From assembly GCF_009906955.1 (NCBI RefSeq), contig NZ_CP047656.1, forward strand, positions 1,054,001 through 1,118,000: 64,000 nucleotides of DNA, in the 5' to 3' direction. This DNA is from Paraglaciecola mesophila. GTDB lineage: Bacteria; Pseudomonadota; Gammaproteobacteria; Enterobacterales; Alteromonadaceae. The notes beneath the pieces were generated by a model. That model worked only from the letters and a program-made list of their open reading frames with translations, had not been told where the DNA came from and did not search any database. The position numbers and the translations under genes were made by a program. Shown here piece after piece: positions 1 through 4,987 of the stretch (positions within the stretch are counted from its first letter, which is position 1; every line of letters starts with the position of its first letter).

Positions 1-735
1 ACACCACCAGTCTTCACAGTATTGCTCACCGCGGTTGGTGGAGTCTGAATCTGCATATTCAGCTGATAAACTTAAAAAGCCATTGTCACCTAACGAGAAA
101 CCTAGGTTACCCGTTAGCGTGATTTGCTCACCATCACCTTCGTAGTATTGCCCCGCGTCAACTGAAAACGAGCCGCCTTCGTCATTGTCTTTTAATACAA
201 AGTTAATAACCCCTGCGATAGCATCTGAGCCGTATTGGGCTGCAGCACCATCTCGCAATACTTCGACGCCTTTAAGGGCAGATGATGGAATGGTAGCAAT
301 ATCAGGACCTTGTGTACCAGAACCCCCAATTTGTACCAAAGCAGAACGATGACGGCGTTTAGAGTTAACGAGTACCAAGGTTTTATCCGTTGGCATACCG
401 CGTAACGTTGCTGGGCGAATAAAAGACGCACCATCAGAAATAGGCTGGCGCTGTAACGAATATGACGGAACTAAGGTTTTTAATATGTCATTGGTGTCCG
501 AGAACGGAACAGCAGCTAGGTCGTCTTCACTCAAAACATCAACCGGTACAGGTGAGTCAGCGAGTGAGCGAGGAGCACCACGTGAGCCGGTAATAACGAC
601 CTTCTCGTAAGCAGCGGCGGCTTCATCTGGCGTTTGGGTTTCTTGTGCGATTGCTGATGAAATAGCAACAGAACTCATTGCGCAGGTCACCAACCCGGTT
701 TTTATTGCTTTGCTAAGTTTATTTTGCTTAAGCAT
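1..735 (-). CDS. TonB-dependent outer-membrane receptor, N-terminal part (cut by window edge)
   Basis: Outer-membrane active transporter for a ligand that cannot be told from this fragment; energised by TonB-ExbBD. 245 codons run from an ATG at 735 to the window edge with no stop. The start is preceded by an AAAGGTG ribosome site. Visible: a signal peptide (about residues 1-31, basic then hydrophobic, ending SAIAQ), a TonB-box-like stretch KVVITGSR just after it, and the plug domain with its usual signatures (LRGMP, VEVLRDGAAAQYGSDAIAG). The beta barrel lies outside the window. It follows the exported RidA gene by 104 bp on the same strand, so it may be the last gene of the amine oxidase operon and supply its substrate. 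That link is inference. Confidence 0.9.
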   Translation of the reverse strand, partial: MLKQNKLSKAIKTGLVTCAMSSVAISSAIAQETQTPDEAAAAYEKVVITGSRGAPRSLADSPVPVDVLSEDDLAAVPFSDTNDILKTLVPSYSLQRQPISDGASFIRPATLRGMPTDKTLVLVNSKRRHRSALVQIGGSGTQGPDIATIPSSALKGVEVLRDGAAAQYGSDAIAGVINFVLKDNDEGGSFSVDAGQYYEGDGEQITLTGNLGFSLGDNGFLSLSAEYADSDSTNRGEQYCEDWWC

Positions 736-801
736 GTGTGTTCACCTTTTTTATTTTTAATCTCTGCGAGCTAATTAACTTGGCTTTCCGTTATTGCACA
801 G

Positions 802-820
802 CCTGCTCGTCCCGAGCAGG
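802..820 (-). promoter_or_regulatory. GC-rich hairpin between ridA-like gene and receptor gene
   Basis: Perfect 8-bp inverted repeat CCTGCTCG / CGAGCAGG with a 3-base loop, in the 104-bp gap between the RidA stop codon and the receptor start. No T-run follows it on the minus strand, so it is not a classical intrinsic terminator. It could be an RNA-stability or attenuation element that lowers or protects receptor mRNA. Function is inferred. Confidence 0.5.
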
Positions 821-839
821 TCTCCTATCAAACTGGTTT

Positions 840-1349
840 TTACTCTGGCTTAGCCAGCACCACTTCAATTTCTATTAGCATGTTCGGACCACCTGCCAAA
901 CCTGCGATTTGAAAAGCAGAACGCGACGGTTTATTTGGCTGCTCCTTCGTACCGAAGTACTTGGTGTATGCCTTCATAAATCCACCGAAGTCCATCTTTC
1001 CATCCATGGTAGGGTCACCTACCATGAACACCTGCATTTTGACGACATCGCCAAAATCAACGCCTAAGTCTTTAAACGAGCTCTCTAGTCGTTTAAATAC
1101 ACTCAAGGCTTGGGTTTCCGTGTCGCCGTAATATTCACGACTGCCTTTCTCTGCATCTGGATTAACTGGGCCTGGGGTCATACCCGCATGAAAAATCAAT
1201 GTGGTATCAGGGGTGACTTCAACCGCACGGGAGATAGGAAACGGGTTGTTATTAGGTAAAGCATGACGCGTGACTTCTGCAAAGCTGCTAGCACTAAATA
1301 ATGCGGCAGTTGCGGCGACTAAAATGCGTTTTTTCATGGTTTTGTTCAT
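840..1349 (-). CDS. Exported RidA-family (YjgF/YER057c/UK114) protein
   Basis: 169 aa. RidA proteins hydrolyse reactive enamines/imines to ketones plus ammonia. The RidA fold features are here: the segment around PSRSAF holds the family's active-site arginine and IEIEV near the C terminus holds the conserved glutamate. Unlike most RidA proteins it has a clear Sec signal peptide (MKKR, hydrophobic AATAALFSA, cleavage after SSFA, about residue 24), so it should act in the periplasm. ATG at 1349 has GGAG about 10 bases upstream; a second ATG at 1337 is possible. It sits 19 bp after the cytochrome c gene on the same strand, and the upstream oxidase would release the imine that RidA handles. Family is secure; substrate unknown. 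Confidence 0.9.
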   Translation of the reverse strand: MNKTMKKRILVAATAALFSASSFAEVTRHALPNNNPFPISRAVEVTPDTTLIFHAGMTPGPVNPDAEKGSREYYGDTETQALSVFKRLESSFKDLGVDFGDVVKMQVFMVGDPTMDGKMDFGGFMKAYTKYFGTKEQPNKPSRSAFQIAGLAGGPNMLIEIEVVLAKPE

Positions 1350-1368
1350 CTAAAGGTAACTCCTGGTT

Positions 1369-1983
1369 TTATTTAAGTTGGCTGATATACGCTGCGAGGT
1401 TTACCGCATCAGGATCAGATTGCACCATGGAAACGGCGGCTTTCATTTGTTGTCCGTACACGTCTTTTTGGTCTGAACCGCGAATACCTGCACGAAAGTG
1501 ATTAATTTGTGTCAGCAAATACCAGTCATTTATACCCTTAAGGCGCGGAGCGCCCATGGCTTGATTTCCTGCACCATTGACACCGTGGCAAGCTGCGCAG
1601 CCTTGATATAGATTTTTTCCTGCTTCTATATCACCATGGATAGTGGGCTCTGGTGCCGGCGACTCGGTTTTACCAATCCAGTTAGCGATAGCGGAGATAT
1701 CGCTCGGAGTTAAATGACGCGTCATAGCCTGCATTTCGCTGCCAGTCACATCGCTGGTGTGTGCCCCGCGAATACCTTGCTTGAAATTATTTAACTGACG
1801 TTCGATATACCATTTAGACAATCCGCCTAAGCGCGGTGCTTTAATATTGGCGTTGCCCTTTAATTGGCTTCCGTGGCAGACAGTGCAGTATTCGAGTCCT
1901 GCAGGTGTAGGTACTTCAGAGGCACGCACCATACTTGCTGTGCCAGCAAACAAGAGAATGAAGAGTGTAGATTTAAGCGACAT
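1369..1983 (-). CDS. Periplasmic diheme cytochrome c (c4-like)
   Basis: 204 aa from the ATG at 1983, which has an AGCGGAG ribosome site about 10 bases upstream; a longer in-frame reading to 2019 exists but would put residues before the signal peptide. Signal peptide about residues 1-21. Two CXXCH haem-binding motifs: CTVCH (33-37) and CAACH (129-133), each followed by a similar half (APRLGG...WY...QL..F..GIRG...D..G.QM and the second equivalent), so the protein is a tandem duplication of a class I cytochrome c domain as in cytochromes c4. Its start overlaps the end of the FAD oxidase gene by 11 bp, indicating translational coupling. Likely the electron acceptor of that oxidase, passing electrons to a terminal oxidase (inference). 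Confidence 0.93.
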   Translation of the reverse strand: MSLKSTLFILLFAGTASMVRASEVPTPAGLEYCTVCHGSQLKGNANIKAPRLGGLSKWYIERQLNNFKQGIRGAHTSDVTGSEMQAMTRHLTPSDISAIANWIGKTESPAPEPTIHGDIEAGKNLYQGCAACHGVNGAGNQAMGAPRLKGINDWYLLTQINHFRAGIRGSDQKDVYGQQMKAAVSMVQSDPDAVNLAAYISQLK

Positions 1984-3562
1984 GACTGGCTGCTCCGCTT
2001 TTAGTGTGTGAACTGACAAGTTGGTTGAACTGTTTCAGAGCTTGCTCACTAGAGGCCAAGGCTCCCTCTTGCCAACCACTGTGGTGACTTATTTGATCGC
2101 CAATCATGAAGTGACGACCTTCCGGCTTTTGCAACAGGTGATAATATTTATCGAAATCTTCAGGGCTCATGCGCATACCACAACCCATTTGGTGATTCAT
2201 ACGGGCCCAAGGAATACTGATACCGTTTTCGATGTATTTACTGCACCCAGGATGGATTTTCTCTGCGGATAGCGCCCCAGCGGTCAGTCGCTCTTGTGGG
2301 GTCATTTTTTCAAATATGCCGCTGACTTTAGCGTCCCAAGTATATGCTCCTAGTAAAATGCCTTTTTGCGCATGAATATCATGCGACGGATACCACAATT
2401 GATTGATAGGGTCAGTGGTATAACTAATACCGCCGTAAATACCATCACGCTCCCAAAAACGCTCACTCATCTGATAGGCAATTTTAAATAAATGCCCGCG
2501 TTTCACGCTGTCTAAGCCGGCTTGATAGGTTTCAGAGAAATTATTGTCGATTCCCGCCATGAAATAAGCCGGAATGTTGTTGAAACAGTAATCTGCTTGA
2601 ACCGTGTGCAGTTTGCCACCTTGCTCATAAGTCACCTCAACACCGTTATCACGGTTAAAGATTTTCTTCACTTGCGCGTTGAGTACAGGTTGGGTTTTGA
2701 GGTGACGTAAAAAGCCTTTGATCACACCGTCCATTCCCCCGACAGGCTCCATTAGCGGCTCGCACCAATCGTACAGCTCTGCTCCTAAAAGCCCGCCATA
2801 CCAAAACTGGCTATCGAGCATGGCTTTTAATTCAATTGGTGCGTGGGGAGTCGGAAATTCCAGCATGCGATCAGTCGTAGAGCCTGCTCGCTCACTACCA
2901 ATGTATTTACCGTTTTCGGTTAAGTCACCATAGGTTTGCGAAAACTTCATGAGTTTCGCGACGTCTTCTTCAGACATCATTTGATCAAAGTTATGTGAGT
3001 CTGCTGACTTCCACAGTAACTCTGACATTAACCCGCGCACATCTGTGTGGTATTCAATAATACGCTTTGGTTTACCGTCTAAGGAGTTGTCGTCATGAAA
3101 ATATGCCATCTTGCTGCTGTTGGCTTTGATCTGTAACGGTACATTCAATGCTCTGCAATAGTGCAACAAACGTCTATGGTGGCCAGGAATACGTGCAGGA
3201 CCGCAGTTAAAATACAAATTATCTTGTTTATCAAATTGGCAAATTTGGGTATTGCCCATTTCATCGATTTTGTCGCCGTTGCGCACGGTTAAGTTACGCC
3301 CGCCAGGTCTAAACGAGGCTTCTAAGATTGTGCAATGAATACCCGCTTTTTCGAGCTCAAGTGCAGTGGCTAATCCCGCTACACCGGCTCCTAGAATAAG
3401 GGCTGTAGGTTGTTCGCCTTTAGCGGCAGGTGTGATGTGAACAGGCCCAGAATAACTATCATCAGGCATTAACCCTAAGGCAAGACTGGTTTTAAGTAAT
3501 GCTGATGAACCGCCTGCTGCCCCTACATAATTGAGAAATTGTCTTCGAGTAATATTTAGCAT
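1973..3562 (-). CDS. Tat-exported FAD-dependent amine/L-amino-acid oxidase
   Basis: 529 aa flavoprotein of the monoamine/L-amino-acid oxidase family. A twin-arginine signal (TRRQFL, residues 5-10) is followed by an Ala/Gly-rich hydrophobic stretch, so it is exported folded with its cofactor. The dinucleotide-binding GAGVAG (58-63), an acidic residue at about 81 for the ribose, and RPGGR (85-89) mark the FAD site. The C terminus has the usual flavin-contact region (GDQISHHSGWQEGALASSEQA). The enzyme would oxidise a C-N bond to an imine. First gene of the oxidase-cytochrome-RidA(-receptor) set and divergent from a LysR regulator. A dehydrogenase using the adjacent cytochrome rather than O2 is plausible. 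Substrate unknown. Confidence 0.92.
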   Translation of the reverse strand: MLNITRRQFLNYVGAAGGSSALLKTSLALGLMPDDSYSGPVHITPAAKGEQPTALILGAGVAGLATALELEKAGIHCTILEASFRPGGRNLTVRNGDKIDEMGNTQICQFDKQDNLYFNCGPARIPGHHRRLLHYCRALNVPLQIKANSSKMAYFHDDNSLDGKPKRIIEYHTDVRGLMSELLWKSADSHNFDQMMSEEDVAKLMKFSQTYGDLTENGKYIGSERAGSTTDRMLEFPTPHAPIELKAMLDSQFWYGGLLGAELYDWCEPLMEPVGGMDGVIKGFLRHLKTQPVLNAQVKKIFNRDNGVEVTYEQGGKLHTVQADYCFNNIPAYFMAGIDNNFSETYQAGLDSVKRGHLFKIAYQMSERFWERDGIYGGISYTTDPINQLWYPSHDIHAQKGILLGAYTWDAKVSGIFEKMTPQERLTAGALSAEKIHPGCSKYIENGISIPWARMNHQMGCGMRMSPEDFDKYYHLLQKPEGRHFMIGDQISHHSGWQEGALASSEQALKQFNQLVSSHTKSGAASHVA

Positions 3563-3988
3563 AAGCGTTCTAACGTACTTCCTAATTTATCGTTCTAATG
3601 AGTTGCAAAATCAGGTTTATATGCTAACGACACGCATCAAATCACAGAACGCACAATAGTATTGTGCCGCCCCATATTTTTTTTATACCCCTTAATTTAT
3701 AAGGGATTGAGTGACACTAAAGGGAAAATAAAGAAGCTTCTAAGCCGTATCCTTTACAAAAAAGCATAAGTTATGCGGCATTAAAATTGCTCTTCTCCTC
3801 GTAACGTTAGTTAACAACGATAAGTAACGCATTTGGTAGCGAAGCATGATTCCATTCTTTACTGAGAACTGACTCTTTATTTGGAGCATAAGCTCAATCA
3901 TAGAGCATATGCCAGATCGGCACTTAATTTGCTGCCATGTATTTACTAGGCAATTATTTGAACAAAACAGCGTGAATTTGGGTACTGA
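3563..3988. promoter_or_regulatory. Divergent intergenic region, oxidase operon / LysR gene
   Basis: A 426-bp region between the divergently transcribed FAD oxidase and LysR-type regulator genes. It should hold both promoters and the LysR binding site (T-N11-A type). It is A+T rich with long T/A runs near 3678. I could not pick one LysR box with confidence. Confidence 0.5.
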
Positions 3989-4987
3989 ATGAATACAAAA
4001 CAATTAGAGTATTTTTTGGCCACAGTTGAGCAAGGAAGTATTTCAAGTGCAGCTAAGGTGCTAGACGTCGCGCAACCTGCGATCAGTTTACAATTGGCGA
4101 ACTTAGAACATGAATTAAAAATCAAATTATTCGAGCGGAATTTTCGCGGAGTATCTCTTACGCTTGCAGGAACGCAGTTTGAAGAACATGCGCGGTTAAT
4201 TTTAAACCAAATTAACACCGCAAAATTCGATCTTATAGGCCTACAAACCGAGTGCAAAGGCAAAGTCGTTATCGGCCTTAGCCAGTCATTGTGCAATGTG
4301 TTGTCAGTGCAACTACAAACCGAATTAGAACATCGTTTCCCCAACGTCGAATTGGCATTTAGGGTGGGCCCATCCTATATGGTAGAAAGCTGGTTTGCTG
4401 AGCAACAAATTGATATTGCCCTGTGTTACAACGTTGAGTTGAGCAAACATGCCGCCAGCTCACTGGCGCTGATGAACGAAAATTTGTATCTGTATATCTC
4501 ACCACGTCCAAAAAACCCAAGTTACAGTGAGCTAACCTTGTATGGCTCAATTCCCTTCGAAGCGTTGCAAGATTATGAATTATTTATGCCCGACCGCAGA
4601 GATGCTTTGCCTAAGCTACTTGAAGAACAAGCACACAAGCGAGGGATTAAGTTGAAAACGCGAAATGCATTTGGCCAGTTAATGACCACCTTACATTACA
4701 TTTCCCAAGGCTTCGGCTTAGCCATATACCCCTCTTCTGCAACCTGTCATCTAGAAGTTAATCATCAAATCAGGGCGATAAAAATAACTGAACCAGAATT
4801 AAAGCGTGAAGTGTATTTGCGCCTAGCAGATCATCAACATAAAAATCCTGCGGTAGCGGCTGTTTTTGAGCTTATTCGCGAAACCACGGCAAACTTGCAT
4901 GCAGATAACAGCTGGCGAGGTGAATTATTGGATAGCAAATACCAACAGCAGTCTGTGATTAATATTGAATCCGCCGTGGCCGGCTAG
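3989..4987 (+). CDS. LysR-type transcriptional regulator (Nac/CbbR-like)
   Basis: 332 aa. N-terminal winged helix-turn-helix (residues about 3-60: QLEYFLATVEQGSISSAAK, then AQPAISLQL and LFERN) followed by the two-lobe substrate-binding domain, from about residue 90 (GKVVIGLSQS) onwards. The N-terminal style resembles the Nac/Cbl group of nitrogen or sulfur regulators. ATG at 3989; no strong Shine-Dalgarno is visible. It is divergent from the amine oxidase operon, the classic layout for a LysR regulator of its neighbour; the inducer could be the amine or its oxidation product. The C-terminal 30 residues after the domain look unstructured. Confidence 0.93.
   Translation: MNTKQLEYFLATVEQGSISSAAKVLDVAQPAISLQLANLEHELKIKLFERNFRGVSLTLAGTQFEEHARLILNQINTAKFDLIGLQTECKGKVVIGLSQSLCNVLSVQLQTELEHRFPNVELAFRVGPSYMVESWFAEQQIDIALCYNVELSKHAASSLALMNENLYLYISPRPKNPSYSELTLYGSIPFEALQDYELFMPDRRDALPKLLEEQAHKRGIKLKTRNAFGQLMTTLHYISQGFGLAIYPSSATCHLEVNHQIRAIKITEPELKREVYLRLADHQHKNPAVAAVFELIRETTANLHADNSWRGELLDSKYQQQSVINIESAVAG

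Follow-up and report, generated by a model that had tools for sequence, protein, structure and literature searches.

The lao-cccA-ridA operon (GDI2456-GDI2454) of Gluconacetobacter diazotrophicus PAL5, described in 2016, encodes an L-amino acid oxidase (LAAO) with a twin-arginine translocation (Tat) signal, together with a cytochrome and a RidA protein (PMC5053998). Expression of lao, cccA and ridA is reduced in a lao mutant, lao is required for the formation of indole-3-acetate from tryptophan, and ccm mutants also make little of this product; the authors proposed that the cytochrome and RidA act together with the LAAO, and according to them Caulobacter and Xanthomonas share this gene arrangement (PMC5053998). 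Clustering of genes for RidA, and sometimes Rid3, proteins with those for flavin adenine dinucleotide (FAD) amine oxidases had been reported in 2015 (PMC4433059). Among the flavoprotein amine oxidoreductases (FAOs) that have been tested, superfamily flavoproteins with a Tat signal and an adjacent cytochrome exported by the general secretory (Sec) pathway have mostly proved to be dehydrogenases that use the cytochrome, and those of FAO clade 1 have dihaem c4 partners (PMC12224317). Here we describe a locus of Paraglaciecola mesophila, located at positions 1-4987 of a 64,000-nucleotide stretch of its genome (the window), with the TonB-dependent receptor gene that runs past the window edge taken whole from the genome. 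This gene set is a real functional unit of an already described kind, to which the window form adds a dihaem partner, a LysR-type regulator and a TonB-dependent receptor. We put the probability at approximately 0.72 that the operon makes a periplasmic L-amino acid dehydrogenase, in which a flavin enzyme is served by its own cytochrome and a Rid protein disposes of the imine. Our analysis adds the five-gene form of Alteromonadales, a phylum-wide count, a tree relating the enzyme to its partner type and the assignment of the Rid protein to Rid3 by best match. A first-pass annotation had known of no described system with all these parts, which is wrong in view of the 2016 operon, the 2015 clustering and the Tat-flavoprotein/cytochrome dehydrogenases described by 2025.

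The minus-strand genes are transcribed in the order flavoprotein, dihaem cytochrome, Rid and TonB receptor. The flavoprotein (1973-3562, minus strand; 529 residues) has the N-terminus MLNITRRQFLNYVGAAGG, which holds the Tat motif, and matches Pfam Amino_oxidase (E 1e-30). The cytochrome, the presumed electron acceptor (1369-1983, minus strand; 204 residues, a Sec-like signal and two CXXCH motifs), was called as an open reading frame at 1369-2019 (minus strand) from a TTG codon; relatives favour the ATG at 1983, from which the gene overlaps that of the flavoprotein by 11 bp. The rid gene (840-1349, minus strand; 169 residues; Pfam Ribonuc_L-PSP, E 1e-12), encoding a putative exported Rid3-like imine hydrolase, starts 19 bp past the cytochrome gene, and a gap of 104 bp separates it from the TonB receptor gene. 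Divergent from these and on the plus strand lies the LysR-type regulator (3989-4987; HTH_1 and LysR_substrate). All five genes listed at first pass were found to be present, with the features given for them: a Tat flavoprotein, a Sec-exported dihaem cytochrome, an exported Rid, a TonB receptor and a LysR regulator. None of the five proteins matches any NCBIfam family above cut-off.

To our knowledge, the Proteus-type membrane L-amino acid deaminases have no cytochrome or Rid gene of their own. They resemble the proposed system in being Tat-delivered, and carry out membrane-bound L-amino acid deamination (PMC5651824). The lao-cccA-ridA operon shares with the window a Tat-dependent LAAO-type flavoprotein, an adjacent c-type cytochrome on the same strand and a Rid protein in the same run. 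The quantitative PCR primers of PMC5053998 translate to YPSHGYF (404) and QVIHPNY (447), with 45 residues from YPSH to IHP, the same as in the window (391 and 436), and the ridA primer translates to KLGKID where the window Rid has GKMD. This likeness, seen through printed primers rather than full sequences, supports homology with the Gluconacetobacter operon, the description of which names neither a LysR nor a TonB gene, both present in the window (PMC5053998). The locus is also like NicA2-CycN, Pnao and FAO clades 1-3 in that a Tat flavoprotein is paired with a dedicated cytochrome exported by Sec (PMC9396064, PMC12224317), a likeness in these features. The best-known FAO-cytochrome dehydrogenases act on nicotine and its products, unlike the enzyme proposed here, and Rid proteins go unmentioned in PMC12224317. 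In the case of Chlamydomonas, LAO1 with LAO2/RIDA combines a periplasmic LAAO and a clustered Rid partner as in the window, and its authors themselves cite the Gluconacetobacter cluster; LAO1 differs in making H2O2, and the passages of that paper examined report no cytochrome (PMC10805672). A literature search found no paper on a Paraglaciecola LAAO.

The order LysR (divergent), flavoprotein, dihaem cytochrome, Rid and TonB receptor is kept in 14 of the 14 closest loci, comprising 12 in named genomes, one from the phylum sample (L060) and the window copy. Among the genera represented are Paraglaciecola, Psychrosphaera, Thalassotalea, Pseudocolwellia and Pseudoalteromonas; the flavoprotein finds its best-matching segment (100%) in P. 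chathamensis, and in L012 the TonB gene is broken into two frames. The outer flanks differ in the Psychrosphaera, Pseudocolwellia and Pseudoalteromonas loci, so the block is not mere chromosomal synteny. We extended the comparison to an even sample of the phylum, in which a flavoprotein homologue at E < 1e-40 occurs in 27 of 398 genomes, and determined the gene content of 30 oxidase loci, with flanks up to 8 kb, using profile searches of every reading frame. The Tat RR motif is present in all 30. A cytochrome gene lies on the same strand within 600 bp of the flavoprotein gene in 22 of these loci, and Rid is encoded on the same strand within 1 kb in 22 and within 4 kb in 24; both adjoin the oxidase in 17 loci and neither does in one, and a TonB receptor gene is found within 5.5 kb in 16. 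For Rid within 1 kb, a rough estimate that assumes 5 Rid genes per 4.5 Mb gives an expectation of ~0.1% per locus, and the flavoprotein-Rid linkage therefore exceeds chance. Plasmid copies of the same three genes occur in Paracoccus marcusii and Comamonas odontotermitis. The gene-neighbourhood search suggested at first pass thus finds the genes conserved together, and this linkage (14/14 close loci, 17/30 phylum-wide) supports the functional unit of exported flavin enzyme, own cytochrome and matching imine hydrolase that had been proposed. That the five genes are instead unrelated neighbours, and the pathway a coincidence, has nothing in its favour beyond the fact that chance adjacency is possible; the constant order amid changed flanks, together with the conservation of the triplet across the phylum and on plasmids, refutes it, and we regard it as next to impossible. 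The enzyme was found in 15/395 genomes of the order and 13/22 Paraglaciecola genomes which, with the phylum-wide figure, marks it as part of an accessory unit. Two Paraglaciecola genomes (G750 and G752) contain a second member of the flavoprotein family, 37% identical.

The enzyme tree reveals that partner type follows lineage. In the clade containing the window enzyme, the flavoprotein is invariably accompanied by a dihaem cytochrome and then Rid; in a second clade the cytochrome is invariably monohaem, usually with Rid; in a third, Rid is present in all members but one and no cytochrome is adjacent. Most distant relatives are accompanied by a monohaem cytochrome, as opposed to the dihaem form of the window. 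Because cytochrome type tracks the enzyme lineage, we argue that flavoprotein and cytochrome work together. LysR and the downstream TonB receptor are constant in the window's subclade only, leaving flavoprotein, cytochrome and Rid as the core. Two loci (L067 and L072) have an extra three-haem cytochrome gene (~490-510 residues) just upstream of the flavoprotein gene, in addition to a monohaem one downstream.

The best solved relative of the flavoprotein is the L-amino acid oxidase of Rhodococcus opacus (roLAAO, 2jae), matched over the full length at E 1.6e-65. It is followed by ancestral and snake L-amino acid oxidases, and monoamine oxidases match via the FAD-binding part only. Sequence alignment places roLAAO Arg84, Tyr371, Trp467 and the flavin-near Lys at Arg124, Tyr407, Trp497 and Lys360 of the window flavoprotein. 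We take Arg84 and Tyr371 to hold the substrate carboxylate and Trp467 to shape the site, with the Lys near the flavin. The Arg, Lys and Trp are found in 50 of 50 aligned sequences and the Tyr in 47. The retention of these residues makes an L-amino acid the most likely substrate class, as judged by alignment. An AlphaFold model of the flavoprotein (mean predicted local distance difference test score, pLDDT, 39.8; 11 close sequences only) was set aside, and the active-site case rests on the alignment.

The cytochrome has cytochrome c4 (1etp) as its best sequence match. Its predicted model (pLDDT 79.5) aligns with c4 structures at Z 17-19 (Z 18-19 over 160-167 residues), including 1h1o (Z 19.2, root-mean-square deviation 2.1, 160 aligned) and 1etp (Z 18.8, root-mean-square deviation 2.4, 166 aligned); other structural matches are the dihaem parts of thiosulfate dehydrogenase TsdBA and of flavocytochrome c sulfide dehydrogenase. 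On the basis of this model, the predicted fold is that of c4, a tandem c-type arrangement with two haem sites. Among the structural matches is 8smr, in which cytochrome c4 is found within the Pseudomonas bc1-cbb3 supercomplex, and this suggests a route for onward electron transfer. In Dinoroseobacter shibae, the flavoprotein-cytochrome pair lies directly behind genes for a cytochrome c oxidase subunit and its assembly.

Among solved structures, the Rid protein is matched best by PFL_1385 (E 3e-30) and PSPTO_3006 (E 1e-29), with nothing else better than 1e-4; by best match, the window protein appears closest to Rid3 proteins. The PFL_1385 alignment covers the N-terminal signal-like stretch as well. 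Both relatives are tested Rid3 imine deaminases, which hydrolyse iminoarginine and the imino acids made by LAAO from Leu, Gln, Phe, Met and His (PMC5619798). Their in vivo partners were not established (PMC5619798, PMC4433059), and the in vivo substrates of Rid3 proteins have been described as not known (PMC4433059). Arg143 of the window Rid, the counterpart of RidA Arg105 and the arginine needed for activity, is invariant in the close clade, as is Glu162, and the Arg is kept in the phylum loci read. A Sec-like signal ends at SSFA-EV and is conserved in the closest clade; using a crude signal-peptide scan, we claim export for this clade and for those phylum loci with a readable signal. A second exported-looking Rid (174 residues, PF14588/PF01042) is encoded in the same genome (L004:1483-3366, ~C1:4,711,500), 33 bp downstream of the gene for a Tat-exported, class-V aminotransferase-like pyridoxal phosphate enzyme of 441 residues with weak SufS and PvdN matches, far below cut-off. 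This pair again combines an exported imine-making enzyme with an exported Rid, the chemistry being different.

The LysR gene has the same place and orientation in 14/14 closest loci, and its product is most likely the regulator of the divergent operon. The divergent promoter region (3563-3988) was aligned with its counterparts, 12 Alteromonadales flavoprotein-LysR intergenic regions in all. A TATAAAAAAAATAT-like element, a T-N11-A site, is common to them, and several contain a CACAAT-N3-ATTGTG dyad; as putative binding sites, these elements fit LysR control. A sigma-70 promoter scan gave fewer sites than expected by chance and was not used. NAC and GltC ranked top for the regulator, far below cut-off, so no ligand is proposed from them.

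The TonB receptor gene occupies window positions 1-735 (minus strand), which hold the N-terminal 245 of 868 residues; the full gene, L005:6129-8735 (minus strand), has Pfam Plug and TonB_dep_Rec_b-barrel matches. Copies at the same place in the closest loci are 74-97% identical, and the best paralogue in the window's own genome, where 28 segments match, reaches at most 53% over part of the protein. Of the solved structures, siderophore and colicin I receptors come nearest; they match best in the plug region, and this does not identify the ligand. At L079:14647-17551, a TonB receptor 61% identical to that of the window is located near an oxidase only 35% identical to the window enzyme. It may be that the receptor passes from one lineage to another along with, or close to, oxidase loci of this sort.

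Several observations weigh against a dehydrogenase of free L-amino acids. With respect to the acceptor, roLAAO is a true oxidase, the tested c4-partner clade reacted only modestly with cytochrome in solution (PMC12224317), and a Tat signal and Rid occur with no adjacent cytochrome in one clade of homologues (L063, L064, L068-L071 and L074), meaning that some homologues may use O2 or another acceptor. The window enzyme could alternatively be an L-amino acid oxidase that works in the periplasm with O2 and gives off H2O2, which would serve competition or signalling, with the cytochrome doing another job, e.g. general electron transfer; both the oxidases among its closest solved relatives and the cytochrome-free homologues would agree with this. 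We nevertheless consider it rather unlikely: the cytochrome gene is beside that of the flavoprotein in 22 of the 30 loci and overlaps it in the window, cytochrome type tracks the enzyme tree, and a Tat signal with an adjacent cytochrome is a tested predictor of dehydrogenases in related enzymes (PMC12224317).

The remaining points concern the substrate. Free amino acids seldom need a TonB receptor, so the substrate may be larger, and the roLAAO pocket residue Gln228 is replaced by Trp (Trp266) in the window's clade, which points to a side-chain specificity different from that of roLAAO. The same machinery might instead act on a peptide, an amine or an amino-acid derivative delivered by the receptor. 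The constancy of the receptor in the closest clade, the presence of a TonB receptor gene within 5.5 kb at 16 of 30 loci, the 61% identical receptor near the far more distant L079 oxidase and the altered pocket all lend weight to this alternative, as does Chlamydomonas LAO1, which is reported to permit growth on certain short peptides in addition to free amino acids (PMC10805672). On the other hand, the retained carboxylate-binding Arg and Tyr fit amino acids, the 28 matching segments in the genome mean that linkage at distant loci may be partly chance, and the solved receptors are all too distant to indicate a ligand. We see a substrate other than a free L-amino acid as a possible, if doubtful, outcome. 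A more elaborate version is a long shot: the five genes of Alteromonadales might be one dedicated capture-and-burn system, in which a compound bearing an amino acid and either bulky or scarce (e.g. a peptide) enters through the TonB receptor, the periplasmic dehydrogenase feeds respiration via a purpose-built dihaem cytochrome and Rid works while attached to the enzyme; the cell would then gain nitrogen and electrons without cytoplasmic amino acid uptake.

For the L-amino acid dehydrogenase that we favour, family and active site suggest that the Tat-exported FAD enzyme would oxidise an L-amino acid to the imino acid. Gene linkage and the tested Tat-flavoprotein/cytochrome pairs suggest that the co-encoded c4-type dihaem cytochrome would take the electrons from the reduced flavin and pass them on to a terminal oxidase. 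Within the same compartment, the exported Rid3-type protein, in view of its relatives and catalytic Arg, would speed conversion of the imino acid to 2-oxo acid and ammonia. LysR would provide control of the operon, and the TonB receptor would probably import the substrate or a precursor, which is the weakest step.

Beyond the five genes, that of an exported-looking DUF1805 protein (PF08827; 5040-5381, minus strand) meets the LysR gene tail-to-tail in 10 loci; one of these is the Thalassotalea locus L013, whose further flank is unlike that of Paraglaciecola. The DUF1805 protein may travel with the unit.

If the proposed function is correct, periplasmic respiratory deamination of amino acids with on-site imine disposal would be widespread in Pseudomonadota and patchy in marine Alteromonadales. 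The locus would also offer a testable home for Rid3-type proteins, and the rule that a Tat signal with an adjacent cytochrome denotes a dehydrogenase would reach LAAO-type enzymes.

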